From NCBI GenBank assembly GCA_007745835.1, contig CP036424.1, positions 3,893,968 through 3,957,967 on the forward strand: 64,000 bases of DNA, written 5' to 3'. A program made the translations under genes and the position numbers. The stretch is from Planctomycetes bacterium MalM25 (GTDB lineage: Bacteria > Planctomycetota > Planctomycetia > Pirellulales > Lacipirellulaceae). The notes under the pieces are model-generated. The model searched no databases. It had not been told where the DNA came from and worked only from the letters and a program-made list of their open reading frames with translations. This document shows, piece by piece, positions 50,388 through 64,000 of the stretch (position 1 is the first letter of the stretch; every line of letters begins with the position of its first letter).

Positions 50388-50389
50388 GG
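50350..50389. repeat. 40-base direct repeat, left copy (glnD 3' end)
   Basis: Bases 50350-50389, which include the glnD stop codon, recur at 51132-51171 with 39 of 40 identical (A at 50381 versus G at 51163). The two copies are 782 bases apart and enclose the K+ channel gene. Confidence 0.9.
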
Positions 50390-50394
50390 GGCCA

Positions 50395-51120
50395 ATGTCG
50401 ATCACCAAGCTTCGCTCAATCATCGAGTCAACCGACACGCCCGCTGGCAGGGCGTTCGACGCCACGGTTCAGCTGCTGATCGTCATCTCCATGGTCGCAT
50501 TCGCCATCGAGACGCTCCCCAACCTCAGCGCTACGACGCGATGCTTGCTCCGCGTCATCGAGCTGGGCTCTCTCGTCCTCTTCACGGCCGAATACTTGCT
50601 ACGCCTGCTCCTCGCGGAGAAGCCGCTGCGGTACGCGACCTCGTTCTTCGGCGTCGTTGATCTGCTGGCGATCGCCCCGATGATGCTCGGGGCGTTCGAC
50701 GCGCGGACCGTGCGGGCACTGCGATTGCTGCGGCTACTCCGCCTGCTGAAGCTGGTCCGCTACAGCGCCGCAGTGCGGCGGCTCCACCTCGCCCTCAAGA
50801 TCGCCTGGGAAGAGCTGATCCTCTTTTCAGTCATCAGCGGCATCTTGCTCTTTATCGCCGCGGCGGGGATCTACCAGTTCGAGCACGAGGCCCAACCCGA
50901 GGCGTTCGCCTCGATCTTCCACGCTCTGTGGTGGGCCATGGTGACACTCACGACCGTCGGTTACGGGGACGTTTACCCCATCACCGTTGGCGGTCGCGCC
51001 TTCACTTTCTTGGTGTTGGTTGTCGGTCTCGGGGTCGTAGCGGCTCCGACAGCAATGGTCGCCAGCGCTTTGACGCAAGCGAGGCAGATCGAATCGGCAC
51101 GCGAAGAAGATCGCGAATAA
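50395..51120 (+). CDS. Voltage-gated-type potassium channel
   Basis: A 241-residue inner-membrane channel with six helices and a pore loop. S4 has Arg/Lys every third residue (RALRLLRLLRLLKLVRY). The selectivity filter is TVGYGD in the P-loop WWAMVTLTTVGYGDVYP. S1, S2, S3, S5 and S6 are recognisable in order. The length is that of compact prokaryotic Kv channels without a regulatory domain. The ATG at 50395 is six bases after the left 40-base repeat. GC content is lower than that of glnD. The flanking direct repeats suggest it was inserted after glnD. Confidence 0.93.
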   Translation: MSITKLRSIIESTDTPAGRAFDATVQLLIVISMVAFAIETLPNLSATTRCLLRVIELGSLVLFTAEYLLRLLLAEKPLRYATSFFGVVDLLAIAPMMLGAFDARTVRALRLLRLLRLLKLVRYSAAVRRLHLALKIAWEELILFSVISGILLFIAAAGIYQFEHEAQPEAFASIFHALWWAMVTLTTVGYGDVYPITVGGRAFTFLVLVVGLGVVAAPTAMVASALTQARQIESAREEDRE

Positions 51121-51131
51121 CAAACTCTATT

Positions 51132-51171
51132 TCAGCCGCCGGCTGATGGCGGTGATTGAGCGGGACTGAGG
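51132..51171. repeat. 40-base direct repeat, right copy
   Basis: Copy of 50350-50389 with one mismatch. It starts 11 bases after the K+ channel stop and, read on the minus strand, encodes the last 12 residues and the stop codon of the converging gene. Confidence 0.9.
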
Positions 51172-52376
51172 TCGGGGTCGCGGGTCAAGTCGTAGCTGAA
51201 CGCTCCGAGCAGCGTGCCGTACGGGACCTCGTGGCACGCGGCGCAGCTCTTACCCGCCCGCAGGGCGCCCACCATGCCAACATGACGTTTGCCCCCCTCG
51301 GCGCCCTCCTCAATAACGAGGTCCTCCTGGCCACGGAGACGCTCCAGGGCGGCGGATTCAAACGAATTCGGCCCACGCGTCGGGACCCCGTCGAGCGCTT
51401 CCATGTTGGGCAACTCATCCAAGACATAGACCGTCGGATCGTCGTGCTTGAGCAGGCCGATCAGTTCCAAACGCCGCAGCGTCCAACGCCCGCCCGAATC
51501 GCTGTTTCTCTTCCATTCGTCGTAAGGCACGTCGCCCAAGCCGTGGCCCAAAAAACCGGCGACGCGTTCCGGCGCCTTATCGAGGTAGCCCAAACGCTCT
51601 TGATCCAAGAACTCCTCCTGGGTGGTCCGGTGGATCTCCTCCGCCGTCGAGCTGTCGGCCCGGGACGCGAGCCGCAATGGCAGGCGGATCGGCTCGCTCA
51701 CCAGATCTTCCAAGGAGTAGTCAAGCCGACGCTCGGTCACCGGGCCCATCCGCGCGAAGCCAAACCCGGGACTACGAGCGAACCGTTTGTAGGAGTCGCT
51801 GTGGATCCGTTCGAGCTGAGACGAATAACCACGCCAGGGCGATCGATCCTCGTCGAGCGAAGTCAGGGCCTCTTCTTGCCCTTGGGTCAACGACACGGGG
51901 TTGAGGATCGCCTGGGGCGGCTCCGGCAGCCGATCGCGGATCGACACGATCGGGTGAGCTCGACGCATGGCTTCGACGCGCTGATCGGACTCGACCGCGT
52001 AGCGGAACGTCGGGATGTAGGCGAGGAACATCACCGCGGCGCAGGCGAGCAGCCGGCCGCGGGGTCGTTCCTTCCAGGGCGTCGAGCCGACGCAGATCAA
52101 GAAGGTCCCGATCGACTGCAAGAAGAGCGCGGACGAGAAGAACGGGACCGAGAGGAAAAAAACGAGCAGGCAGGGAACGAAGGCGATCGCCCCGCGCCGT
52201 TTGGCAATCACCACCCCCGCCGCCGCCAGCAAGAGCAGCGACACGACGGCGCACACCGTGTAGTTGGCCCCAAGCCAACTGACCGGCCCCGCCACACCGG
52301 CCAGAACGCCGGTCGCCAGCAAGAGATCAAGAAGAGTAAACCGCCACCGGGGAGCACGATCGGGTGAATCGTCCAC
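51132..52376 (-). CDS. Membrane protein with a single CxxCH heme motif
   Basis: A 414-residue protein of unknown function. Four hydrophobic helices occupy the first 140 residues (DLLLATGVLAGVAGPVSWLG; CAVVSLLLLAAAGVVIA; AFVPCLLVFFLSVPFF; LLACAAVMFLAYIPTF). A soluble part follows and ends with a covalent heme motif, GKSCAACHEVPYGTLLGAFSYDL. The last residues (LSPAQSPPSAGG) come from the 40-base direct repeat. An AGGAGA site lies 8 bases before the GTG at 52376. The C-terminal part is probably periplasmic because heme is attached there. Confidence 0.7.
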   Translation of the reverse strand: MDDSPDRAPRWRFTLLDLLLATGVLAGVAGPVSWLGANYTVCAVVSLLLLAAAGVVIAKRRGAIAFVPCLLVFFLSVPFFSSALFLQSIGTFLICVGSTPWKERPRGRLLACAAVMFLAYIPTFRYAVESDQRVEAMRRAHPIVSIRDRLPEPPQAILNPVSLTQGQEEALTSLDEDRSPWRGYSSQLERIHSDSYKRFARSPGFGFARMGPVTERRLDYSLEDLVSEPIRLPLRLASRADSSTAEEIHRTTQEEFLDQERLGYLDKAPERVAGFLGHGLGDVPYDEWKRNSDSGGRWTLRRLELIGLLKHDDPTVYVLDELPNMEALDGVPTRGPNSFESAALERLRGQEDLVIEEGAEGGKRHVGMVGALRAGKSCAACHEVPYGTLLGAFSYDLTRDPDLSPAQSPPSAGG

Positions 52377-52532
52377 GTCGCTTCTCCTTGTTCAGAAGCC
52401 CTTCCCCGGCGTGTTCATTATTTGCCGTCGCGGATATTCGGTCAAACTCGCCCGATGGCGGCGGGGCGATCCAAGAACTAAACTGGAGGGCTACCCCCTC
52501 CCGCCCGCCGCTGCCTACCCCCTCCCGCTTCC

Positions 52533-53672
52533 ATGCTCCGTTACTGGACCGCCGGCGAATCACACGGTCAGACGCTCCTCGCGCTGGTCGATGGCTTCCC
52601 CGCCGGCGTGACGCTCGACACGTCGGGCATCGACGCCGACCTCAAGCTCCGCCAGGGGGGCTACGGCCGCGGCGGACGCCAGCGGATCGAGACCGACAAG
52701 GTGCAGATCCGCACGGGCGTCTGGCAGAACACGTCGCTCGGCTCGCCGATCGCCCTGGAGGTGGTCAACAAGGACTACAAGCTGGAGCGGCTGGAGGACC
52801 TGCCCCGCCCCCGCCCCGGCCACGCCGACCTGACCGGCAGCGTGAAGCACCTGGGGGGAATCCGCCCGATCCTCGAGCGCTCGTCCGCCCGCGAGACGGC
52901 CGTCCGCGTCGCCGCCGGCGGTCTGGCGAAGCTGCTGCTCAAAGAGTTCGGCATCGAGACGATCGGCTACGTCGTCGAGCTGGGCGGCGAACGGATCGAG
53001 CCCGTAGAAGGCACGATCGAGGAGCTCCGCGAGATCCGCTCCAAGAGCGAGATCTACGCCCTCAACCCCGAGCGGGACGAGGCGATCAAGGAGCTGATCA
53101 AGAAGACCGGCAAGGCGGGCGACACGCTAGGCGGCGTGCTCGAAGTGCGTGTCGACGGCCTGCCGATCGGCCTGGGGACCCACGCGCAGTGGGACCGCAA
53201 GCTCGACGGCCGACTCGCCCAAGCGGTGATGGCGGTGCAGGCGATCAAGGGGGTCGAAATCGGCCTCGGGTTCGAGGCGGCCCGCCGGCCCGGCTCGCAG
53301 GTGCACGACCCGATCCACTTCGACGAGTCCGAGAGAGAGACCGCGAACCTCGGCTTCACCCGCCCCACGAACAACGCGGGCGGGATCGAGGGGGGCATGA
53401 CGAACGGCCAGTCGCTGATCGTCCGCGCCGCGAAGAAGCCGATCAGCACGCTCGCGAAGCCGCTGGCAAGCGTGAACCTCCAGACAAAAGAGGAAGACGT
53501 GGCGAGCTACGAACGCTCGGATGTCTGCGCTGTGCCCGCGGCGGGCATTATCGTCGAGGCGGTAGTCGCCTTCGAGATCGCCGCCGCCCTGGTCGATAAG
53601 TTCGGTAGCGACAGCCTCGCCGAGATGAAGGCCCGCTACGACCTGTTCCTCCAGATGGCCCGAGAGAAATAG
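52533..53672 (+). CDS. aroC: Chorismate synthase
   Basis: Last step of the shikimate pathway: 5-enolpyruvylshikimate 3-phosphate to chorismate, using reduced FMN. The 379-residue protein begins MLRYWTAGESHGQTLLALVDGFPAG (FMN-binding start). It has RQGGYGRGGRQRIETDKV, RPGHADLTGSVKHL, ARETAVRVAAGGLAK and the FTRPTNNAGGIEGGMTNGQ motif. Chorismate feeds the futalosine pathway seen at the left end of the window. The AsmA-like gene follows after 33 bases. Confidence 0.96.
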   Translation: MLRYWTAGESHGQTLLALVDGFPAGVTLDTSGIDADLKLRQGGYGRGGRQRIETDKVQIRTGVWQNTSLGSPIALEVVNKDYKLERLEDLPRPRPGHADLTGSVKHLGGIRPILERSSARETAVRVAAGGLAKLLLKEFGIETIGYVVELGGERIEPVEGTIEELREIRSKSEIYALNPERDEAIKELIKKTGKAGDTLGGVLEVRVDGLPIGLGTHAQWDRKLDGRLAQAVMAVQAIKGVEIGLGFEAARRPGSQVHDPIHFDESERETANLGFTRPTNNAGGIEGGMTNGQSLIVRAAKKPISTLAKPLASVNLQTKEEDVASYERSDVCAVPAAGIIVEAVVAFEIAAALVDKFGSDSLAEMKARYDLFLQMAREK

Positions 53673-53705
53673 CGGGATCGCGGATTGGCGATCCCCAGTC
53701 CGCGG

Positions 53706-54920
53706 ATGCTACTCGAGAAAACGCAACGACGACTCTGCCGCCTGCTCTTTGTGTTGGGCTGCGTGCTTCCGACGCTAGCGGTCGCCGGAATGACCGTCGG
53801 GCGGGTCCGCCCCGGCTTCGCGGCCGACCTGCTGGCAGCCGCCGGCGAACGGCTCGGCGTCGAGGTCGCCTGCGACCGGCTCACCACGCCCCGCCCCGGC
53901 GTCTACGCGCTGGAGGGCGTGCGGCTGCTCACCCCGTCGACCGGGGACGAGCTCGCTCACGGCGACCGGCTCCGCCTCGAACGGCGCGACGGCGTCTGGC
54001 GTTTCTCCGGCGGAACGGTGCGGCTCTCACCCCGACTCGCCGAAGCCCGCTGGCTCCGCCGGCTGCTCGCCTCCGACACGCTCGCCCACGGCGAGCTATC
54101 GCAGCTGCGGCTCAGCGAGGGCGATCCCTTGCAGGGGGTCGTGCTGCGACTCAGCCATACCGAAGCGAACGGCCGGCGTTTGCAGATCAACTCGGAAGAT
54201 GGTTGGAAATTCGACGCGACCGACGACGCGGGCGTGACGCGGGTCGCCGTCGAAACGTCCGCCGCGGGCCTCGCCAGCGAGTGGCTCGCCGCCACGCCCC
54301 TGCGTTGGGCGGCTGGCGAGGGGGCTCGCTTCGCGGGGCGGGTCACCGTGGAGAGTCGGGAATCGAACTCCCCGTCACTCGGCACGGCCGAGGGACGGCT
54401 CGTCATGGGATCGCTCGCCTCGCCGCAACTCAACGCCGCCTCGGGCGAAGTTCGCCTCGACTCGCTGCGGTGGACCGGCGAACGGATCGACCACCTGGCC
54501 GGCCGACTCGACCTGCGCAACGGCAGCGTGAACGGCCGGGTCGTGTGGGGAGCCTGCCAGTGGCTCGCCACCCCGCCCCGCGACCGCTTGCAGAAGCTCT
54601 GGGCCGATCCGGCGGCACGGAACGGGATCCCGTTCTCCCAGCTCGCTTGCGAGATCGAACTCGGCCCCGCGGGCGTGGCGCTCGCCGCCGGGTGCGGCGA
54701 GATCGACGGGCGTCTCCGCCCGGGCGCCGTGGCGCACGCGGTCCTGGAGCACGAGGGCGAGGCCCTGCTGCTCGAGCCGGTGCAACGCCCCCTGCCCCCC
54801 CAACGCCTCGTGCAGGCGTGGTTCCCCGATCACCGCGCCGAGCTGCCGGCCGAGCACGCGGCGATCGAGTTGATGCGCGCGTTGCCGGCGCCGAGCGAGC
54901 GGCAAGAGGCCGGACGCTAG
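53706..54920 (+). CDS. AsmA-like exported protein, hypothetical
   Basis: A 404-residue protein with an N-terminal membrane anchor (RRLCRLLFVLGCVLPTLAVAGMTVG). The rest is almost entirely short beta strands (GVYALEGVRLLTPSTGDELAHGDRLRLERR; HLAGRLDLRNGSVNGRVVWG), a pattern like the AsmA/DUF748 group of periplasmic proteins. No catalytic motif was seen, and the assignment rests on overall shape only. The ATG at 53706 is used rather than an in-frame TTG at 53685. Confidence 0.55.
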   Translation: MLLEKTQRRLCRLLFVLGCVLPTLAVAGMTVGRVRPGFAADLLAAAGERLGVEVACDRLTTPRPGVYALEGVRLLTPSTGDELAHGDRLRLERRDGVWRFSGGTVRLSPRLAEARWLRRLLASDTLAHGELSQLRLSEGDPLQGVVLRLSHTEANGRRLQINSEDGWKFDATDDAGVTRVAVETSAAGLASEWLAATPLRWAAGEGARFAGRVTVESRESNSPSLGTAEGRLVMGSLASPQLNAASGEVRLDSLRWTGERIDHLAGRLDLRNGSVNGRVVWGACQWLATPPRDRLQKLWADPAARNGIPFSQLACEIELGPAGVALAAGCGEIDGRLRPGAVAHAVLEHEGEALLLEPVQRPLPPQRLVQAWFPDHRAELPAEHAAIELMRALPAPSERQEAGR

Positions 54921-55016
54921 CACCACCCCCCGTTTATCTTGCTGGCGCCCGCCCGGGGATGCTACAAGACGCAATCGGAAAGCTCTTTCTCCCGATTGCA
55001 CCCCCACTGCGCGCCG

Positions 55017-56279
55017 ATGGCCCCGCCCGGCAATCCGCTGCTCTTCTACGTCGGGGCGGTGCTGTGCGCGTATGTCGCCGGGCAGGCGATCAAGGGAGCG
55101 GCGGGCGTCTGGTGGCGCCGCCAGGAACAGCGGCGCCGCAACGACCGCGACGCCGAGGCCTTCCGCCAAGAAGCGGCCACGGCCGCCGAGTCGGCCCGCG
55201 CACGGCTCTCGCGCCAGCTCGCCTGGGAGGGACGGCGCGAGCTGGTCGTGTCCGCGGTGGTCGACGAATCGCCCGACGTGAAGTCGCTGTACCTCATCGA
55301 CCCCGAGAGCCGCCCCCTGCCCCGCTTCCTGCCCGGCCAGTACCTCACGCTCGCGTTGCCCGCCGGACCGGGCGGCGAGGAGGTCGTGCGGTGCTACTCG
55401 CTCTCCGACCGCCCACACCCGGAGTACTACCGCCTCTCGATTCGCCGCCAAGACGCGCCGTCCGACACGCCCGAAGCCCCCCCGGGAGTCGCGAGCCACT
55501 GGCTGCACCGCCACGCGAAGAAGGGCCTGCGGCTCGCCTGCGAAGCGCCGCGTGGCGCCTTCTTCTACAACCCGGGCGAGCCCCGCCCCGCGGTGCTGAT
55601 CGGCGCCGGCGTCGGCGTGACGCCGCTGGTCGCGATGCTCGAAGCGGCCGACCATGAGCAGCTCCGCACGGCGACCCACGCGGTGTTCGGCTTCCGTGAC
55701 GGCGCCGCGCACCTGTTCGCCGACCGTGTTCGCGAGATCGCCGCGGCGAACCCTCTGATTACGACGCTCTTCGCCTACTCGTCCCCGGGCGACGAGGACC
55801 AGGCGGGCACGCACTACGACACGGCGGGACGGGTCACGCTCGAAACGCTCCGCGCCGCGTTGCCCTCGAGCAACTTCGACTTCTTCCTCTGCGGCCCGCC
55901 CCAGATGATGCAAGCGCTCGTGCCGGAGCTGCTCGACTGGGGCGTGCCCGAAGAGGCGATCCACTTCGAAGCCTTTGGGCCGGCGAGCGTGTCGCTCGGC
56001 GGCACCGCGGCGGACAAGGCGATCGGTTCGCCCGTCCGCTTTGCCCCGAACGAGGACCCGCACGTCTGGGACGGCGAGTGCTCCTCGTTGCTCGAGATGG
56101 CCGAGGCGATCGGCGTCCCGCTCGCTTCGGGCTGTCGGGCGGGCAACTGCGGCGCCTGCCGCGTGCGGGTTGTCGAGGGCAAGACGATCAACGTCCGCTC
56201 CCCCGGCACGCTGACTGAGGACGACGAATGCCTCGCCTGCATCAGCCTGCCCGACGGGCCGGTCACGATCGAAACCTAA
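55017..56279 (+). CDS. Membrane-anchored flavin/2Fe-2S oxidoreductase
   Basis: A 420-residue reductase with, in order, an N-terminal helix (LLFYVGAVLCAYVAGQAIKGAAG), an FAD-binding domain with the RCYSLSD motif, an NAD(P)-binding domain (LIGAGVGVTPLVAML; DFFLCGPPQMM), and a C-terminal plant-type 2Fe-2S ferredoxin (CRAGNCGAC, then CLAC). This layout is shared with CDP-glucoseen reductases and the reductase parts of Rieske and diiron oxygenase systems. Here it leads a cluster of cytochrome and Fe-S genes, so it probably supplies electrons from NAD(P)H at the membrane. The ATG at 55017 follows the AsmA-like gene by 96 bases. Confidence 0.87.
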   Translation: MAPPGNPLLFYVGAVLCAYVAGQAIKGAAGVWWRRQEQRRRNDRDAEAFRQEAATAAESARARLSRQLAWEGRRELVVSAVVDESPDVKSLYLIDPESRPLPRFLPGQYLTLALPAGPGGEEVVRCYSLSDRPHPEYYRLSIRRQDAPSDTPEAPPGVASHWLHRHAKKGLRLACEAPRGAFFYNPGEPRPAVLIGAGVGVTPLVAMLEAADHEQLRTATHAVFGFRDGAAHLFADRVREIAAANPLITTLFAYSSPGDEDQAGTHYDTAGRVTLETLRAALPSSNFDFFLCGPPQMMQALVPELLDWGVPEEAIHFEAFGPASVSLGGTAADKAIGSPVRFAPNEDPHVWDGECSSLLEMAEAIGVPLASGCRAGNCGACRVRVVEGKTINVRSPGTLTEDDECLACISLPDGPVTIET

Positions 56280-56312
56280 CCGACTGCACTGCCGGCTCGA
56301 AGCCGGCCCGGG

Positions 56313-57317
56313 ATGGATCCCTTGGCGAAATCACTCACCAGAACGACCGCCCTCGCCCTCGCCTGGTGCGCTGCGTGCGCCGGCGCGCAGCCGCCGGGCG
56401 GTGACGACCTCGATCCGGCGAAGGTGCTCGGCTCCGACGCCTGCAAGAAGTGCCACGCGCCGGAGATCGCGCAGTGGGAGCGCACGCCCCACGCGATGAC
56501 GATCGACACGCTGCACCGCAAGCCCGAGGCGAAGGCGATCGCCGACCGGCTCGGGCTGCGGAGCGTCAAACGCAACGACACCTGCGTCCGCTGCCACTAC
56601 ACGCCGAAGCTGGTGCGGGGGCGTCCGCGGATCGACTCGGGCGTGTCGTGCGAATCGTGCCACGGGGCGTCGCAGGACTGGGTCGAGCTGCACGCGGAGT
56701 ACGGCCCGGGGGTCACCCGCGAAACCGAGGCGCCCGACGCCCGACAACGCCGGCGGCTGGCGAGCATCGCGGCGGGGATGAACAACCCGTCGAACCTCTA
56801 CCTGATCGCTCGGCAGTGCCTCGACTGCCACACGACCCCCGATGAGAAGCTTGTCGACGTGGGGGGCCACTCGGCCGGCAGCCGCGACTTCGAGCTGGTC
56901 TCGTGGTCGCAGGGCATGGTGCGGCACAACTTCGTGCGGGGGAATGGCGCCAACGCGCCCAGCGCCCTGCCACGGGTGCGCGTGATGCACGTCGTGGGCG
57001 TGATGACCGACCTGGAGTACAGTCTCCGCGCCGTCGCCAAGGCGACGACCGGCGGCGTGTTCGCCAAGGCGGCCGCCCAACGCGCCGCCGCCCGCAAACA
57101 GACCCTCTGGGCTCTGCAACGCCGCCTCGACGACCCGCTCGTCCAGCCGGCGCTCGACGCGGTCGCGACGCTCGAGCTGAAGCTCGGCAACGGCGACGCC
57201 GTCAACGCGGCGGCCGACGCCATCGCCGACGCCGCTTACGCCTTCGCCGAGCGCGCCGCGGGCGAGCGGCTCGCCGCGATCGACGACCTCCTGCCGAATC
57301 CGACCCAGTACAAGTAG
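56313..57317 (+). CDS. Tetraheme cytochrome c (c554-like)
   Basis: A 334-residue exported cytochrome. A signal region (RTTALALAWCAACAGA) is followed by four CxxCH motifs: CKKCH (44-48), CVRCH (91-95), CESCH (113-117) and CLDCH (169-173). The SDACKKCHAPEIAQWERTPHA start is typical of the cytochrome c554/multiheme family. A helical C-terminal part of about 100 residues carries no further heme motif. It lies 33 bases after the flavin reductase gene and 12 bases before the Fe-S/cNMP gene, so co-transcription is likely. It probably carries electrons in the periplasm. Confidence 0.88.
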   Translation: MDPLAKSLTRTTALALAWCAACAGAQPPGGDDLDPAKVLGSDACKKCHAPEIAQWERTPHAMTIDTLHRKPEAKAIADRLGLRSVKRNDTCVRCHYTPKLVRGRPRIDSGVSCESCHGASQDWVELHAEYGPGVTRETEAPDARQRRRLASIAAGMNNPSNLYLIARQCLDCHTTPDEKLVDVGGHSAGSRDFELVSWSQGMVRHNFVRGNGANAPSALPRVRVMHVVGVMTDLEYSLRAVAKATTGGVFAKAAAQRAAARKQTLWALQRRLDDPLVQPALDAVATLELKLGNGDAVNAAADAIADAAYAFAERAAGERLAAIDDLLPNPTQYK

Positions 57318-57329
57318 CCAGGCATCCCG

Positions 57330-59021
57330 ATGCTCGAAGTCGCCCGGCCGCGCCCGCAGCGGTGGGACAAACCGCTCGACCCCGACATGACCGATCGCAC
57401 GGTCGATCGGCTGCTGCGCGTCCCCCCGTTCGCGTCGATGGACCCGGAGGCGTTCCCGCGGGCGACGCCGCTGGGTGGTTTGCTGCGGAACGACACCCGG
57501 GTGACGCAGCACGAGCCGGGCGAGCTGATCGTCCGCGAGGGGGACTACGGTTCCAGCGCCCTGCTGGTCCTCGACGGCCAGGTGCGGATCACCCTCGAGA
57601 GCCTCCCCCCCGAGACGCTCGGCCGTCCGCCCGAACCACGCGGGGCGAAGCTGATGCGTGCGGTCGCGCGGCTGTTCGGGCAATCTCGCGTCCCTGAGCT
57701 CCGCTCGCGCGACGCCGTCAGCGCAACGCCCACTCGCGCCGACGAGGGCGTCTTCCTGCAAGACATCCCGGGCGTGCTCGACGAGGCGGCGACAGCGATC
57801 CTCGGAGCCGGCGAGCTGTTCGGTGAGCAGGCCGCCATCACCCGCGCGCCGCACACGGCGACCGTGTTCGCCGAGACCGCCTGCGTGCTACTGGAGATCC
57901 GCTGGCAAGGACTCCGCGACCTCATGCAGCACACGCCCGCGTTGCGTGAGCACATCGACCAACTCTATCGCCAGAACCACCTGCAGCGTCACCTGCGGCA
58001 CACACCGCTGCTGGCGAAGCTCGACGACGCGGCGCTCGAACGGGTCGCCGAAGCGGTCCGGTTCGGGTCGTTCGGGTCGTTCGACTGGTCCGACTCAGCC
58101 CGCGACGACGCGCAGGTCGACGCGTTGGAGCGTTTGCAGCGCGAGCCGCTCGTTCTCGAGCAGGGCAAACCGGTCGAGGCGGTGATGCTCATCCGCAAGG
58201 GGTTCGGACGCATGACCAGCCGGCTCGGCGAGGCGGACCGCACGATCGCCTACCTGGGCAAGGGCCGCGCCCTGGGCGCCGAGGAACTGGTCGTCGCCGC
58301 CGAGCGGGGCGAGCCGCCGGTCTGGCGCCGCTCGATCCGAGCGGTCGGCTGCCTCGACACACTGCTCATCCCGCCGGAGACCTTCTTCCGAGAGGTCGCG
58401 CCAACGCTCACCGAGCCGCAGAAGCAGCGTTGGCGCGAACGCGCCGCGCAGCAGGACGCCACCCACCAACCCCCGCCCGGCGCCGCGCCGGCCCGGACGC
58501 TCGACTTCCTGGTCGATCAGCGGCTCGTGAACGGCTCGCAGTCGATGGTGATCGATCTGGACCGCTGCACGCGTTGCGACGACTGCGTCCGCGCTTGCGC
58601 CGCGACGCACGACGGCAACCCGCGGTTCATCCGCGAGGGTCAGACCCTCGACCAGGCGCAGTTCGCCGAGGCGTGCATGCACTGTGTCGACCCGGTCTGC
58701 ATGATCGGCTGCCCGACGGGCGCGATCCACCGTGACGAGGAGACCGGCGTCGTCCGCATCAACGACGGCACCTGCGTCGGCTGCTCGACCTGCGCGAACA
58801 GCTGTCCCTACCAAGCGATCCAGATGGTCGAGGTCCGCGAGTCGGGCGGGGCGATCGTCTTCGACGAGGCGACCGGCCAGCCGCTGCTCCGCGCCACCAA
58901 GTGCGACCTCTGCCACGACCAACCGACCGGCCCGGCGTGCCAGCACGCCTGCCCGCACGACGCCCTGGTGCGGCTCGACCTGACCGACTCATCGGCCATC
59001 GCCGCCTGGAGCCAGCATTAA
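57330..59021 (+). CDS. Cyclic-nucleotide-binding-like / four-cluster 4Fe-4S ferredoxin fusion
   Basis: A 563-residue cytoplasmic protein. The first two thirds hold two CRP/cNMP-like jelly rolls. The first has VREGDYGSSALLVLDGQVRIT and GELFGEQAAITRAPHTATVFAE, with an insertion of about 60 residues between strands; the second has EQGKPVEAVMLIRKGFGRMTS and GRALGAEELV. The C-terminal third is a NrfC/DmsB-like ferredoxin (CTRCDDCVRACAATHDGN; CMHCVDPVCMIGCPTGAIH; CVGCSTCANSCPYQAIQM; CDLCHDQPTGPACQHACPH), enough Cys for four 4Fe-4S clusters. There is no twin-arginine signal, so it should stay cytoplasmic. Its stop overlaps or abuts the next gene. Confidence 0.88.
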   Translation: MLEVARPRPQRWDKPLDPDMTDRTVDRLLRVPPFASMDPEAFPRATPLGGLLRNDTRVTQHEPGELIVREGDYGSSALLVLDGQVRITLESLPPETLGRPPEPRGAKLMRAVARLFGQSRVPELRSRDAVSATPTRADEGVFLQDIPGVLDEAATAILGAGELFGEQAAITRAPHTATVFAETACVLLEIRWQGLRDLMQHTPALREHIDQLYRQNHLQRHLRHTPLLAKLDDAALERVAEAVRFGSFGSFDWSDSARDDAQVDALERLQREPLVLEQGKPVEAVMLIRKGFGRMTSRLGEADRTIAYLGKGRALGAEELVVAAERGEPPVWRRSIRAVGCLDTLLIPPETFFREVAPTLTEPQKQRWRERAAQQDATHQPPPGAAPARTLDFLVDQRLVNGSQSMVIDLDRCTRCDDCVRACAATHDGNPRFIREGQTLDQAQFAEACMHCVDPVCMIGCPTGAIHRDEETGVVRINDGTCVGCSTCANSCPYQAIQMVEVRESGGAIVFDEATGQPLLRATKCDLCHDQPTGPACQHACPHDALVRLDLTDSSAIAAWSQH

Positions 59022-59076
59022 CCGCCGCACCCAAGTCCGCCGCCGCTACCGCAACGCCGCGCTCGCCGCCGGCGCG

Positions 59077-59850
59077 GTGATCGTGTGCGTGCTGTTCGCG
59101 CAGCGGCTCGACGCGACCCTCGCCCGCAGCGCCTACGGGACCGGCTACACGCTGTACGCCGCGGTGCTCGCCCTCGCCGCGTACCACTTCCGCAAGAAGC
59201 TCCCCGGGCTGCCCCTAGGGACCAGCCGGGGTTGGTTGCAGGCGCACCTCGTGATCGCGATCGCCTCGGCGGTGTTGTTCTATCTGCACCTCGGCGGGCG
59301 GTGGCCCAACGGCGGGGTCGAGTCGGTCCTCGCCGCGCTGTACCTGGCGACCTTCGGCAGCGGCGTGCTCGGCTTCTACCTGACACGCACCCTCCCGAAG
59401 CAGCTCGCGCGCACGAGCGAGCAGTTCATCTACGAGCGCATCCCGCGGCTCCGCACGCGCGTGCAGCAAGAGGCCCGCGCCACGGTGCTCGACGCGGTCC
59501 ACGCGACCGGGGCGCTCACGCTGGCCGACTTCTACGCCGACCGCCTGCACGGCTTCCTCGGCAGACCCCGCGCCTTGCGATACACCCTGTGGCCGACGAC
59601 CCGCGCGCGGAGCCGGTTGTTCAGCGAACTCACCGGCATCGACCGCTTCCTCACCGAGCCCGAACGCAACGCGTCCGACCGGCTCTTCAAGCTGATCCGC
59701 CGCAAGGACGACATCGACTTCCACGCCGCCAGGCAGGGTGTTTTGAAGGCGTGGCTGTTCGGGCACCTGGCGCTCACGTGGGGCCTGCTACTGCTCGGCC
59801 TGGGGCACGCGGTGCTGGCGCTCGCCTTCCGTGGGGGGCCGACGCCATGA
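59077..59850 (+). CDS. Membrane protein with cytochrome b-like histidine pairs
   Basis: At least 257 residues with about four to five membrane helices. Two helices carry His residues exactly 14 apart: AHLVIAIASAVLFYLHLG and GHLALTWGLLLLGLGHAV, the bis-heme pattern of quinone-reacting cytochromes b. A soluble loop of about 120 residues lies between them. The start is unclear. The GTG at 59077 cuts into the first helix. The frame is open back to 58984 without ATG/GTG/TTG, and an ATT at 59017 overlapping the upstream TAA would add a basic N-terminus (NRRTQVRRRYRN) and full helix. The stop overlaps the next gene's start (ATGA). Confidence 0.72.
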   Translation: MIVCVLFAQRLDATLARSAYGTGYTLYAAVLALAAYHFRKKLPGLPLGTSRGWLQAHLVIAIASAVLFYLHLGGRWPNGGVESVLAALYLATFGSGVLGFYLTRTLPKQLARTSEQFIYERIPRLRTRVQQEARATVLDAVHATGALTLADFYADRLHGFLGRPRALRYTLWPTTRARSRLFSELTGIDRFLTEPERNASDRLFKLIRRKDDIDFHAARQGVLKAWLFGHLALTWGLLLLGLGHAVLALAFRGGPTP

Positions 59851-61823
59851 GCCACACGCCCGGCGACTACGATCGCCCCAACCTGAAGTGGACCTGCGGA
59901 CTCACCGACGAGGCCGACCCCTGCTCGGTCGGACCGACCTGCCAAGGCCGCTGCCCGAAGCTGGGCGAGTGCGTCCCGCAGCGCGACGGCGACCGCTGGG
60001 GCTGCAACCGCAGCCCCAACCGGGGCGGACCCTGCCCCGACGGCCCGGGCCCCGACGGCCGCTGCTGCCTCACCCGCAGCTGCATACCCCGGCGCTCGCT
60101 CCGCTCAATCCGAGGGCGCTGGATCACCGGGGCGGCGATCTTCACGGTCGGCGCGTTGCTCATGCTGTTCGGCTCGGGCCGGCGCAATGAGCTGATCGTG
60201 CCCGGCGGCCTCACCACGCACCACGCCCAGGTGATCGCCCGCGGCGAGTGGTCGAACCGCTGCGCCGCGTGCCACCCCGGCGCAAACGACCAGCTCGGCT
60301 CGTGGGTCGGGACCGCCCTGCTCGGCGAGTCGCACGACGGGGCGACGCAATCCGATCTCTGCCTCAACTGCCACCGCGACCTGGCGACGCCCTCCGCCGC
60401 CCCGCTGCTGGCGCACGGGCTCCCTACTGAGGCGTTGCCGAAGCGACATCGCGCCACGGCACAGGCGGCGACGGCCTCGCTGGTCTTGTTCGCGGCGCCC
60501 GGCTCGCCCGCCCACGGCGGGCACGCCTCGGACCCGCTCGCCTGCGCCGCTTGCCACCAAGAGCACCACGGCGCCGGGCACGACCTGGCCGCCCTCACCG
60601 ACGCCCGCTGCCAGGCGTGCCACGTGGAGCGTTACGACAGCTTCGCCGAGGACCACCCCGACTTCGGCGTCTGGCCGACGACGCGACGGACGCGGATCCG
60701 CTTCAACCACGCTTCGCACCAGGGGACGCACTACACCAAGGCGAACCGCGATTTCGATTGCCGCGTCTGCCATCAAGTCGATTCGACCGGCGACCTGACG
60801 GCCCGGCCCGACTATCAACAAGCGTGCGCCGAGTGCCACGACGCCGACCTCGTCCGCAGCTTTGGCGAGGGGCTCCCCTTCCTGGCGTTGCCGACGATCG
60901 ATCGCGAAGCGCTCGCCGACGCCGCGCCAGCCGCTTGGCCCGAAGGGGCGCTCGGCGACTTCGACGGCGACCTGCCGGCGTTCACCAAGCTGCTGCTCGC
61001 CGCCGACCCGGCCGCCAGCGCGGCGATGGAGCGACTGGGGCACGATTTCTCGTTCTTCGATCTCGACGCCGGCGAGCCGGCGGACGTCGCCGCCTCCGCA
61101 GCGCTGACCGACGCCCTGGTCCGCCTGCTCGATGAGGTGCAAGAGGAGGGCCACGGCGCCATCGCCGGGCGGCTGAGTACCCTAACTGGCCAAGCAGACG
61201 GCGCGGCGACTGCCGACCTCGTCGCGCGGCTGCCGGTCGAGCTGATCGACCGCATCCAGGCCACCTGGCTGGGCGATCAGGCGCCGCCCGAACCATTCGA
61301 CGCGATCGAGGACCGCACCGCCGGCGGCGGCTGGCAGGTCGAGGACGACCGCCTGCAACTCACCTACCGCCCCACAGGACACGACGACCCGTTCCTCCGC
61401 GCCTGGCTCGACGCGATCGCCGCCCTGCCGCCGGAGCGGGCCGCGCTACGCGACGCCTGCCTCGCCGAGTTCAAACGCCCCGGCGCCCCGGGCGGCTGCC
61501 TCGAGTGCCACAGCGTCGAGCAATCCGGCGACCGGCTCACGATCAACTGGCGGGGCCGCGACCGGCTGAACGAGCCGCGCGGCTTCACGAAGTTCTCGCA
61601 CCGCCCCCACCTGATCCAGCCCGAGCTAGCGACCTGCACCCACTGCCACCAGCTCGACCCGGCGGCCGAGTCGGTGGTGAACTACACGGGTGCCGACCCC
61701 CACCGCTTCACGAGCGAGTTCGTCACGCTCTCAAAGGCAGCCTGCATCGAATGCCACCGCCCCCACGCCGCGGGGGATCGGTGCACGCAGTGCCATAATT
61801 ATCATGTGAGCCCGGTTAGATAG
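59847..61823 (+). CDS. Decaheme cytochrome c with N-terminal Cys-rich domain
   Basis: A 658-residue protein. Residues 1-80 form a Cys-rich cytoplasmic-side domain (11 Cys, including C17, C26, C32, C36 and C42), then one membrane helix (WITGAAIFTVGALLMLFG, 92-109). The rest is periplasmic with ten CxxCH motifs: CAACH (139-143), CLNCH, CAACH, CQACH, CRVCH, CAECH, CLECH, CTHCH, CIECH and CTQCH. Six lie in the first third and four in the last 140 residues, separated by a helical region of about 200 residues with no heme. The ATG overlaps the previous stop (ATGA), indicating translational coupling. Confidence 0.88.
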   Translation: MSHTPGDYDRPNLKWTCGLTDEADPCSVGPTCQGRCPKLGECVPQRDGDRWGCNRSPNRGGPCPDGPGPDGRCCLTRSCIPRRSLRSIRGRWITGAAIFTVGALLMLFGSGRRNELIVPGGLTTHHAQVIARGEWSNRCAACHPGANDQLGSWVGTALLGESHDGATQSDLCLNCHRDLATPSAAPLLAHGLPTEALPKRHRATAQAATASLVLFAAPGSPAHGGHASDPLACAACHQEHHGAGHDLAALTDARCQACHVERYDSFAEDHPDFGVWPTTRRTRIRFNHASHQGTHYTKANRDFDCRVCHQVDSTGDLTARPDYQQACAECHDADLVRSFGEGLPFLALPTIDREALADAAPAAWPEGALGDFDGDLPAFTKLLLAADPAASAAMERLGHDFSFFDLDAGEPADVAASAALTDALVRLLDEVQEEGHGAIAGRLSTLTGQADGAATADLVARLPVELIDRIQATWLGDQAPPEPFDAIEDRTAGGGWQVEDDRLQLTYRPTGHDDPFLRAWLDAIAALPPERAALRDACLAEFKRPGAPGGCLECHSVEQSGDRLTINWRGRDRLNEPRGFTKFSHRPHLIQPELATCTHCHQLDPAAESVVNYTGADPHRFTSEFVTLSKAACIECHRPHAAGDRCTQCHNYHVSPVR

Positions 61824-61835
61824 TCCTCAGCACCA

Positions 61836-62273
61836 TCAGGGCCAGTACGGCTCAACCTCATCCATCTCGTAGGTTTGCCCAACCTTATCTGCATACGGCC
61901 CGATAACAAGCGCACCAGAGCACACTGGACTCGGGAAGTCTGTCTCATAGAGCAACATAGAATTAGACAGCAACAATCCAAGCCCCGGCCAGTACTCGGA
62001 GACAAGCACCTCATTAATAGTCGCACCAGAGCACTGTAGCAGGTACTTCTCACCACAGAGCGTTGCTTCACTGCTCACGGAATCAACTGCGATGATCGGC
62101 TCCCTTGAATCGTAGTACGCGCTCGAGAGTGAGAATGCCACGCCGCTTTCAATCACAACGTAAGTCGTGCATCCGCCAAACCCATCTGGTTCGGTTTCCC
62201 AAGGCGTTCGATAGATGCCGGCGATCTGCTGGCCAACGATGTCATCGCGGAGTAGTTGGCTTTCTGTAGGCAT
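61836..62273 (-). CDS. Small hypothetical protein
   Basis: A 145-residue acidic, soluble protein that I do not recognise. It is strand-rich (CTTYVVIESGVAFSLSSAYYDSREPIIAVDSV; EATLCGEKYLLQCSGATINEVLVSEYWPGLGLLL). GC content is far lower than that of the cytochrome cluster it converges with, whose last stop is 12 bases away. Size and composition resemble orphan immunity-type proteins such as the SUKH gene at 3345, but no toxin is present and this is a guess. The next gene on the same strand lies behind a CCTCCCC-type repeat. Confidence 0.6.
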   Translation of the reverse strand: MPTESQLLRDDIVGQQIAGIYRTPWETEPDGFGGCTTYVVIESGVAFSLSSAYYDSREPIIAVDSVSSEATLCGEKYLLQCSGATINEVLVSEYWPGLGLLLSNSMLLYETDFPSPVCSGALVIGPYADKVGQTYEMDEVEPYWP

Positions 62274-62305
62274 GCCGCATCACAACCTATTCAGGTGTTG
62301 CCATA

Positions 62306-62402
62306 TCCCCTCCCCTTGATGGGGAGGGTTAGGGAGGGGTGGTGAAGCCGGGTACCCGATTCGCCCCCTCCCCTAGCCCCTCCCCACAAGGGGGAGGGGG
62401 AC
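62306..62402. repeat. CCTCCCC/GGGGAGG palindromic repeat, copy 2
   Basis: Homologous to the element at 3066-3180: same CTCCCCTTGATGGGGAGGG left part, the GGGTACCCG centre (about 62350-62358), TCGCCCCC, and the CCACAAGGGGGAGGGG right end. It fills the space between two minus-strand genes, close to the stop of the outer-membrane-type protein. Confidence 0.8.
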
Positions 62403-62408
62403 ACGCGC

Positions 62409-64000
62409 TCAGAACTTCCAACGGTACTCAACCCGCGCCCCGTGCACATCGTCCGAGTTATCCAGCAGGCCGATCATCGCGTCGGCGCGGATCAGGTGGG
62501 CGGTCGTTAGGGCCTTCTGCCAACGCACGCCGACGCCGACCTGGTCGCCCGCCGTGTTGCGGTCGGCGAGGGCGCCGCGGGCCTTCAGCACGGCGGTCTC
62601 GACGATCAGCTGCTGGTTGAACTCGGGCGACAGCAGCTCGACGCCGATCGCGGCGCCGTACGTGTCGTGCCCGGTCGCGTCGAGCGTCGGGTAGCCGGTC
62701 AGCTGATCGCTCTGGAAGAGGATCCCCGTGTTGAACAGCACCCCGCCGAAGGCGCCCGCCCGCATCAGCGGCTGCGGCTTGTCGAAGCCGGCGAAGACGT
62801 TGATGTACGGCAGCACGTTGTACGGGTTGTTCGTCAGGAAGGTGTTCTCGATCAGGAGGAGCGCGCCGTCGGCCGTCTGCTCCGCGGCGCCGGTCTCCTG
62901 CCCCGCGTTGAGGATCAAGCGGACCGAGTTCGACACCAGATTGGCGTACCGCCGCGTGTAACTGGCGCCCAAGTTGTGGTAGCTGCGTCCGCCCCCCTCC
63001 TGGTCGTCGACGAAGCCGTACCCGATCTCGAAGTACCCGCCACGCGACTCGATGAACGTGGTGGCGCCGATCACGGCGGCGTCGTCCTCGTCGAAGCCGA
63101 AGGCGTCGCTGCTGATCCGATCGACGCCTCCGAACAGGGTGACGTCGAAGTTCGACCAGTCGAGCAGCGGGCTGTTCTGCGCGGGCAACGTCACCGCGGC
63201 GCCGACGATCGCGTCGAGCGACCAGACGCCGTTCTGGAACAAGAGCGGGATGAGGCCGGCCGTGAACGGCAAGTCGAACGGGGCGTAGGTGTGCTCGAAA
63301 CCGCCGAGCATCGCCCCGAAGTCGCCCTCGAAGAAGAGCGTGTCGGTCTCCGCCTGGAAGAAGTCGAGCTCCTCGATGAACTCGCCATCGGCCACCCGCA
63401 TGAACCGTGCGTCCTTCTGGAACGGGCCCAGGAAGGCGTGGATCCGCTCGGTCGAGGTGATCTGGTAGTCGAGCTCCAGGTTCAGCCGGTGGGCGAGCAC
63501 CGTCTGCGAGTCGTTAGCCAGGTCGTTGTGCGCCAGGCCGACGCGGTAGTCGCCGTACACGTAGAAGCGGTGGAAGCTCAGGTTCGTCGGCCCGAACTCC
63601 TCGCCACCGATCGGCGTGGGGCCGGGGCCGTAGAACGGGGCGCCCCACTCGATGAGCGGCCTCTGGGTCTTGATCTCCGACTTGCCCTGGTAGGTCATCA
63701 GCTCGCCGCACGGCTCGTACGGCGCGAAGAAGGCGTCCGCGCTGAAGTCGCCGGTGCCGCACGGCGTCGCGCAGGCGCGCGGGTCGTGGCAGACCGGGTG
63801 GTGCTCGATCTCGGGGAGCTTCGGCTCCTCGTCCTTCTTCTTGCCCTTCGCCTTCTTGTCGTCTTTCGCCGCCGGTTCCGGGCAGGCGTACGCCTCGACG
63901 GGCAGCTCGGGGCTCTCCAGTGGCGGCGGCGCGAACAGACCGAATCGCCCCACGACCGGCTGCCCCGGCGAGCCGACGCCGCACGTCATGGCAACCCGCA
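62409..64000 (-). CDS. Outer-membrane beta-barrel-type protein, partial at window edge
   Basis: At least 526 residues. The frame is still open at position 64000, so the true start and signal peptide probably lie outside the window; the ATG at 63989 is only the first internal one. After a Lys/Glu-rich linker (DDKKAKGKKKDEE) the body is a run of amphipathic strands: LSFHRFYVYGDYRVGLAHND, NLELDYQITSTERIHAFLG, YFEIGYGFVDDQEG, SYTRRYANLVSNSVRLIL, ending ARVEYRWKF with a terminal Phe, as is common for outer-membrane barrels. The Cys residues near the N-terminal linker (CHDPRACATPC) are unusual. No transport substrate can be named. Confidence 0.7.
   Translation of the reverse strand, partial: RVAMTCGVGSPGQPVVGRFGLFAPPPLESPELPVEAYACPEPAAKDDKKAKGKKKDEEPKLPEIEHHPVCHDPRACATPCGTGDFSADAFFAPYEPCGELMTYQGKSEIKTQRPLIEWGAPFYGPGPTPIGGEEFGPTNLSFHRFYVYGDYRVGLAHNDLANDSQTVLAHRLNLELDYQITSTERIHAFLGPFQKDARFMRVADGEFIEELDFFQAETDTLFFEGDFGAMLGGFEHTYAPFDLPFTAGLIPLLFQNGVWSLDAIVGAAVTLPAQNSPLLDWSNFDVTLFGGVDRISSDAFGFDEDDAAVIGATTFIESRGGYFEIGYGFVDDQEGGGRSYHNLGASYTRRYANLVSNSVRLILNAGQETGAAEQTADGALLLIENTFLTNNPYNVLPYINVFAGFDKPQPLMRAGAFGGVLFNTGILFQSDQLTGYPTLDATGHDTYGAAIGVELLSPEFNQQLIVETAVLKARGALADRNTAGDQVGVGVRWQKALTTAHLIRADAMIGLLDNSDDVHGARVEYRWKF

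Follow-up and report, generated by a model that had tools for sequence, protein, structure and literature searches.

We analyzed a window, meaning one whole stretch of 64,000 nucleotides, from Planctomycetes bacterium MalM25 (GenBank assembly GCA_007745835.1, contig CP036424.1, positions 3,893,968 to 3,957,967), the genome of which is a single contig of 4.72 Mb. It contains five co-directional genes for electron-transfer proteins, here called g1 to g5. Genes for an outer-membrane beta-barrel and a pentaheme cytochrome adjoin g5 on the other strand and are convergent with g1-g5. By gene content and motifs the locus appears to be a new member of a named type of predicted electron conduit, PCC4 subgroup II, and we lean slightly towards the view that it encodes a trans-envelope conduit which probably carries electrons outward.

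Organization of the locus and properties of the gene products

The positions of the genes are listed in Table 1. An earlier sequence-only reading of this DNA had placed the five genes at the same positions. The gaps from g1 to g5 are 33, 12, about -5 and -4 bases, and the third of these had been given as about 0. A simple consensus scan of positions 54700-62500 revealed no promoter-like sites. Four terminator-like sites were found there, compared to 3.2 ± 1.9 in shuffled sequences, and none of them was located between genes. Neither a tRNA gene (whole window scanned) nor an Rfam family (50000-64000 scanned) interrupts the locus. Thus, the five genes are probably one operon, as had been supposed before.

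Table 1. Genes of the electron-transfer locus (positions in the window unless stated otherwise).
Gene	Position	Strand	Product
g1	55017-56279	+	membrane-anchored NAD(P)H:flavin reductase; FAD_binding_6, NAD_binding_1, C-terminal 2Fe-2S
g2	56313-57317	+	exported tetraheme cytochrome c, c554 type
g3	57330-59021	+	cyclic-nucleotide-binding domains fused to four-cluster ferredoxin with 16 invariant Cys
g4	59017-59850	+	inner-membrane protein, predicted diheme cytochrome b
g5	59847-61823	+	decaheme cytochrome c; Cys-rich N-terminal part, then one membrane helix
barrel	62409-64000, continuing beyond the window end to 64235 (L184:8377-10203)	-	outer-membrane beta-barrel (PCC4 porin)
pentaheme	outside the window, beyond the barrel gene (L184:10215-13202; genome 3958214-3961201); start uncertain	-	pentaheme cytochrome

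The g1 protein matches the Pfam families PF00970 (FAD_binding_6), PF00175 (NAD_binding_1) and PF00111 (Fer2), and its FAD and NAD motifs and the four cysteines of the 2Fe-2S cluster are kept in 20-21 of 21 aligned rows. Since positive charges follow its single N-terminal membrane helix, the enzyme part is presumably cytoplasmic. The g3 protein combines cyclic nucleotide (cNMP) binding domains (PF00027, 74.1 bits) with a ferredoxin domain (PF13247, 42.9 bits, cut-off 26.2), and its 16 cysteines are invariant in 28 of 28 rows.

The g2 protein belongs to PF13435 (Cytochrome_C554, 60.6 bits), and it also matches the solved structure of cytochrome c554 (PDB 1bvb, E 1.5e-6). Four CXXCH motifs are present in all 27 members, and four histidines outside these motifs are invariant (28/28 rows). 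For g5, matches were obtained to an MtrC/MtrF-like family (PF22113, 39.7 bits), Cytochrome_C7 and related heme families. Ten CXXCH motifs were found in 30 of 31 members, the remaining one being cut by a contig end, and exactly ten histidines outside CXXCH are invariant in the 28 of 28 rows of an alignment that leaves out the partial or divergent proteins of L094, L096, L097 and L100. Further histidines equal in number to the CXXCH motifs, i.e., ten in g5 and four in g2, are the count expected if all hemes are bis-histidine-ligated electron-transfer hemes. A membrane helix at about residues 92-112 of g5 would leave the ten-heme part in the periplasm and the Cys-rich N-terminal part in the cytoplasm. 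The g5 profile matches about 200 residues of chain A of structure 6r2q (E 4e-10), a chain labeled cystathionine beta-synthase in the database, which we take to be MtrA. Structure 6r2q is named in the text of the MtrCAB paper. Acidic repeats of the DDLLGG/DLL kind, located after the signal peptide or in linkers, were observed in g5 proteins (L089, L103) and in the N-termini of pentaheme proteins (L117, L126, L173, L182).

No Pfam or NCBIfam family matched the g4 protein at E 0.1. It carries two WX3HX13H motifs (W73-H77-H91 and W246-H250-H264) and an SGXXG motif (SGVLG, residues 115-119). In a first alignment, H91, H250 and H264 were present in 29 of 29 sequences and H77 in 28 of 29, and all four histidines were invariant in a larger alignment (46/46). 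The AlphaFold model is all-helical with a mean predicted local distance difference test score (pLDDT) of 95.1. According to the positive-inside rule, H77 and H250 would lie at the cytoplasmic face and H91 and H264 at the periplasmic face. The gene appears to open with the non-standard codon ATT at 59017, which overlaps the stop codon of g3 (CATTAA) and is shared with two congeners (L064, L065). A start at the first standard codon, GTG at 59077, would truncate the first model helix, and ATT is likely the start codon of g4, a rare one that is conserved.

The domains, motifs and helices described above agree with the sequence-only reading, which had seen in the five products an NAD(P)H-type flavin/2Fe-2S reductase with a membrane anchor, a tetraheme cytochrome c, a cNMP-like/ferredoxin fusion, a membrane protein with bis-histidine helices (in fact two histidine pairs spaced 14 residues) and a decaheme cytochrome c with a Cys-rich domain that is presumably cytoplasmic. 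Its statement that a reductase with molybdenum, copper or siroheme is lacking holds among the five genes.

The barrel and pentaheme families emerged when the neighbours of the core genes were clustered. The barrel model has about 18 strands (residues 138-526) and is closest to MOMP and the OprD/Occ porins with Z about 27, e.g., OpdQ with Z 27.0 and a root-mean-square deviation (rmsd) of 2.8 Å over 319 residues. The pentaheme gene of the window genome scores 880 bits with the family profile, and its product has five ordinary CXXCH motifs and several further conserved histidines. The best solved relative of this profile is a chain of 5ze8 called cytochrome c552 (E 5e-15, about 200 of 649 profile positions). 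Apart from these genes, the window contains at 51132-52376 (minus strand) a frame of 414 amino acids with one C-terminal CXXCH and a sub-cut-off Tll0287-like match.

Conservation of the locus and its relation to PCC4

A search with the g3 protein in 29 genomes, including that of the window species, gave a full-length match in 12, and in 11 of 11 same-family relatives with such a match g1-g2-g3-g4-g5 have the same order and strand. The five-gene order is thus found in relatives, and the orthologues are not scattered where present. Six other family members searched, with assemblies of 130 to 700 contigs, gave only partial g3 matches. Among 294 sampled genomes of Planctomycetota, 34 matched g5, and g3-g4-g5 occurred in this order in 16 of 20 stretches from 19 of the positive genomes, the exceptions being L091, L094, L096 and L097.

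A wider scan of contigs gave a longer list of matches, of which the best 80 loci are considered here. According to record titles, they come from Planctomycetota, Verrucomicrobiota lineages, Alphaproteobacteria, Nitrospinae, Mariprofundus, SAR324, Poribacteria, Chloroflexi and others; single placements may be binning errors, because many of the loci stem from metagenome-assembled genomes (MAGs). Among these 80 loci, g1 was detected in 59, g2 in 68, g4 in 76 and g5 in 73, and the order g3-g4-g5 was kept, across several phyla, in 68 of the 69 with sufficient room. All seven genes were present within the fetched stretch in 23 loci, and some of the loci show pentaheme-barrel-g1-g2-g3-g4-g5 on one strand (e.g., L117, L121, L130, L166, L182). 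In another class, that of G340, whose locus has a Kiloniellales title, and hence probably Alphaproteobacteria, the g4 profile found matches in 66 of 385 genomes, with scores above 220 bits in 25. The 23 stretches obtained from 22 of these 25 genomes all had g3-g4-g5 in order, and 19 had the pentaheme gene; three of the 23 stretches were already among the best 80 loci. Carriers with strain names include Botrimarina hoheduenensis, Lacipirellula limnantheis, Adhaeretor mobilis, Bythopirellula polymerisocia and Ferruginivarius sediminum.

The pentaheme gene, scored at 400 bits or more, was found in 31 of 34 g5-positive and in 8 of 260 g5-negative genomes of Planctomycetota; this cut-off was set after the scores had been seen, and the compared genomes are related, which makes the p-value of this contrast too small. 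The pentaheme gene is located far from g5 in G180 and G135, two genomes that each consist of one contig. A whole-genome search in 38 genomes from the best 80 loci detected a pentaheme gene of 400 bits in 27. The 11 negative genomes comprised nine with titles of Verrucomicrobiota lineages (two of them presumably so, from the genus name), one other bacterium and one Mariprofundus MAG, which has the barrel at the contig edge of its locus. The gene is present in other verrucomicrobial loci, e.g., L126, L147 and L166. In the verrucomicrobial loci L145, L157 and L154, which have the core and come from genomes without a 400-bit pentaheme gene, a protein of 962-1336 amino acids with ten CXXCH motifs is encoded nearby; LVIVD repeats were found in that of L145 and, below cut-off, in that of L154. 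That the genes adjoin each other but have no function in common might be suggested by the pentaheme and barrel genes, which are encoded on the other strand in this locus and at a distance from g5 in some genomes, but we consider it highly improbable in view of the order conserved across phyla and the strong co-occurrence of the genes even when they are unlinked.

He et al. (2017; PMC5566968) proposed PCC4 from genomes as a porin with periplasmic cytochromes of 4, 5 and 10 heme sites. As described in their text, the inner-membrane protein (IMP) has five helices with SGXXG in helix 4 and WX3HX13H in helices 3 and 5, and subgroup II, known from Zeta-, Gamma- and Alphaproteobacteria and Planctomycetes, has a pfam13247 Fe-S gene upstream of the IMP gene and a redox gene upstream of the tetraheme gene. 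The locus studied here corresponds to this description in the heme motifs of g2 (4), the pentaheme gene (5) and g5 (10), the products of which are probably periplasmic, in the SGXXG and both WX3HX13H motifs of g4, in g3 (PF13247) lying directly upstream of and overlapping g4, in the redox gene g1 located 33 bases upstream of g2, and in the barrel as the porin gene (62409-64235). It differs in that the porin and pentaheme genes of the window are convergent with the other five rather than co-directional. These similarities in gene content and motifs to the published description suggest that the locus belongs to PCC4 subgroup II. A locus with a Mariprofundus title (L163) contains g1-g5 and the barrel. 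The view of the sequence-only reading that the gene set matches no named complex could not be upheld once the adjacent barrel and pentaheme genes were included (PMC5566968, main text). The complex that it does match, PCC4 subgroup II, is a prediction and not a characterized complex; no experiments on PCC4 turned up among the best-ranked matches in the open-access literature.

Proposed electron path, its direction and its possible control

Taken together, the motifs for cofactor binding, the conservation of the gene set and its association with the barrel and pentaheme genes suggest a PCC4-type trans-envelope electron conduit, and on balance we lean towards one that is likely to work outward. 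In such a conduit, g1 would accept two electrons from NAD(P)H at its FAD and pass them singly via the 2Fe-2S cluster to the four 4Fe-4S clusters of g3. From there they could reach the cytoplasm-side b heme of g4 (H77/H250), its periplasm-side b heme (H91/H264) and the ten bis-histidine hemes of g5. The g2 protein might relay or branch electrons after g5, although the sequence of these final steps is a guess, and the pentaheme cytochrome together with the barrel might form the outer-membrane end of the chain. The sequence-only reading had envisaged a transmembrane conduit that links NAD(P)H or quinol with hemes outside the cytoplasm, and this is supported by the motifs and the conserved set.

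Oxidation of NAD(P)H, i.e., the outward direction, is favoured by redox and membrane potential, and an ion-pumping subunit is not encoded. Entry of electrons from the cytoplasm is suggested by the distant relatives L327 and L335, in which proteins of 805-810 amino acids fuse pyridine-nucleotide flavoprotein, cNMP and 4Fe-4S domains and are encoded next to a diheme-b-like protein of the same IMP type and a decaheme cytochrome. It is also suggested by four planctomycete loci without detected g1 and g3 (L091, L096, L097 and L227, the last a 4.5-kb contig), whose g4 proteins have lost H77 and kept H91 and H264. All four histidines are present in 95 of 100 g4 rows (92 of 97 distinct sequences), and L148 keeps H77 but has an in-frame stop. 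A Fisher test of this contrast would treat related loci as independent and is therefore disregarded.

Several points weigh against an outward conduit of this kind. No biochemical work on any member came up in the literature searched, and the conduit function is a prediction. Three loci of the other class in which g3 was not found (L319, L323, L331) keep all four histidines of g4; therefore, the link between loss of the cytoplasmic module and loss of H77 is not general, and we restrict it to the planctomycetes. With about 18 strands, the barrel is similar to OprD-type porins and not to the 26-strand sheath of MtrB, and 11 of 38 core-bearing genomes lack a pentaheme gene of 400 bits. Finally, the flow suggested by He et al. 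runs the other way, with an extracellular donor as the source and the quinone pool as the acceptor (PMC5566968, main text).

In the latter model, the barrel and pentaheme proteins would accept electrons from an external donor, e.g., Fe(II) or Mn(II), and g4 would reduce the quinone pool with them or, if energy drives the reverse reaction, NAD(P)+. Besides having been drawn in this direction by He et al. themselves, PCC4 was first found in Fe(II)-oxidizing Zetaproteobacteria and in a Hyphomicrobium of a pyrite-oxidizing enrichment, according to the text of PMC5566968. If quinone is the acceptor, however, no clear role remains for g1 and g3, and transfer to NAD(P)+ would run against both redox and membrane potential. 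In addition, many PCC4 carriers are heterotrophic planctomycetes, which weighs against this model. We regard an inward conduit as rather unlikely.

The pentaheme cytochrome might alternatively be a catalytic oxidoreductase acting on a small molecule (nitrite, hydroxylamine or an oxyanion) that enters via an OprD-like porin, in which case g1-g5 would only feed electrons to a periplasmic reductase. The best solved relative of the pentaheme profile, the cytochrome c552 chain of 5ze8, the similarity of the barrel to MOMP and the substrate-specific OprD/Occ porins, and that of g2 to cytochrome c554 would fit such a system. Still, the 5ze8 match spans only about 200 of the 649 profile positions, and with five ordinary CXXCH motifs and further conserved histidines no open heme site is evident; a reductase appears doubtful and slightly less probable than inward transfer. 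If the outward conduit is correct, a large and mostly uncultured set of bacteria, including planctomycetes, verrucomicrobia and alphaproteobacteria, possesses an NAD(P)H-fed connection from inner to outer membrane, and the named strains among the carriers make it accessible in culture.

The cNMP domains of g3 might be involved in control of this conduit. In the first of them, the cassette glutamate is present in 101 of 101 rows and the cassette arginine in 96 of 101, or 93 of 98 distinct sequences, since three genomes were entered twice. The residue following the arginine is mostly Thr or Ser, which at this position in protein kinase G goes with cyclic GMP. In most family members, g3 probably senses a cyclic nucleotide and thereby would modulate electron entry. 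In 28 loci, 27 of them distinct and all from planctomycetes, gene calls placed a class III cyclase gene next to the first operon gene and in divergent orientation; a Guanylate_cyc domain was found in three of three scanned.

The g3 protein of the window has the glutamate (E166), but the arginine is replaced by H175, and the conduit may therefore be ungated in this species. Its congeners G001 and G002 also have His for Arg, and in the whole genomes of all three the neighbouring cyclase gave no match at E 0.001, whereas the same-genus genome G003 has both the arginine and the cyclase. The loss of both within the genus may have been one single event, and it alone is suggestive of a link between them. 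The arginine occurs in 27 of 27 rows with and in 69 of 74 rows without the cyclase, and therefore there is no strong general association.

FHA domains were found in distant relatives, i.e., in a g5-like protein (L222, L224) and in a g1-like and a standalone protein (L222). That of L327 is just below cut-off, and L319 holds only a sub-cut-off relative of it. L220, L222 and L224 represent a distant conduit variant with cytochromes of up to 17 CXXCH motifs near pentaheme-barrel genes. The FHA and cNMP domains and the cyclase suggest signal-gated electron entry. Tentatively, PCC4 could be a signal-gated wire, in which the cyclic nucleotide of a dedicated neighbouring cyclase binds the Fe-S subunit and switches trans-envelope electron flow; distant relatives would employ FHA domains of the cytochrome and the flavin subunit as additional cytoplasmic switches, and the window lineage would have lost cyclase and binding site. 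If true, such direct second-messenger gating of a respiratory wire would represent a novel mode of controlling extracellular electron transfer. The cNMP domains on the Fe-S protein, the neighbouring cyclase and the proposed NAD(P)H entry are new compared to the main text of He et al. (2017), in which the terms "cNMP" and "cyclic" do not occur; the domain figure is in the supplement, outside this scope. Among the best-ranked matches in the open-access literature, cNMP gating of PCC4 was not found.

Comparison with known electron-transfer systems

Several identities were tested and rejected. For the pentaheme cytochrome, ExtKL (NF040886) gave 15.5 and 35.9 bits compared to a cut-off of 250 and no match in the window genome, and assignments to DmsE and OmcA were far below their cut-offs. 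NrfD-type complexes (Hmc, Qrc, alternative complex III) do not apply, as g4 has no NrfD match and four conserved histidines instead. The verrucomicrobial porin-multiheme cytochrome system was rejected because its periplasmic cytochrome has eight heme sites according to the text of PMC5615132.

In the NADPH oxidase/ferric reductase domain and in cytochrome b561, two b hemes are bound by HX13H pairs and electrons pass outward from NAD(P)H. With its two HX13H pairs g4 resembles these proteins, but here the flavin and Fe-S parts are separate proteins, and g4 has no Pfam match, including PF01794 (ferric reductase/NOX domain) at E 0.1. When searched with Foldseek, the model of g4 had no match at E 0.001 among the families listed there. 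Structural comparison with SpNOX yielded Z 9.4 (rmsd 5.0 over 138) and with cytochrome b561 Z 9.2 (rmsd 3.2 over 135); both values are below about 13, under which caution applies to helical bundles, and a common arrangement of helices could give such scores.

The ExtHIJKL cluster of Geobacter sulfurreducens likewise combines an outer-membrane barrel with a pentaheme cytochrome, but no cytoplasmic module is described for it in the text of PMC6148476. A similarity to MtrCAB, PioAB and MtoAB might be seen in the multiheme wire plus outer-membrane barrel. In MtrAB, the barrel (26 strands for MtrB in the text of the MtrCAB paper) sheathes the decaheme cytochrome, whereas the barrel described here has about 18 strands, and the decaheme cytochrome of this locus appears to be tethered to the inner membrane, with a cytoplasmic flavin/Fe-S module as its electron source.

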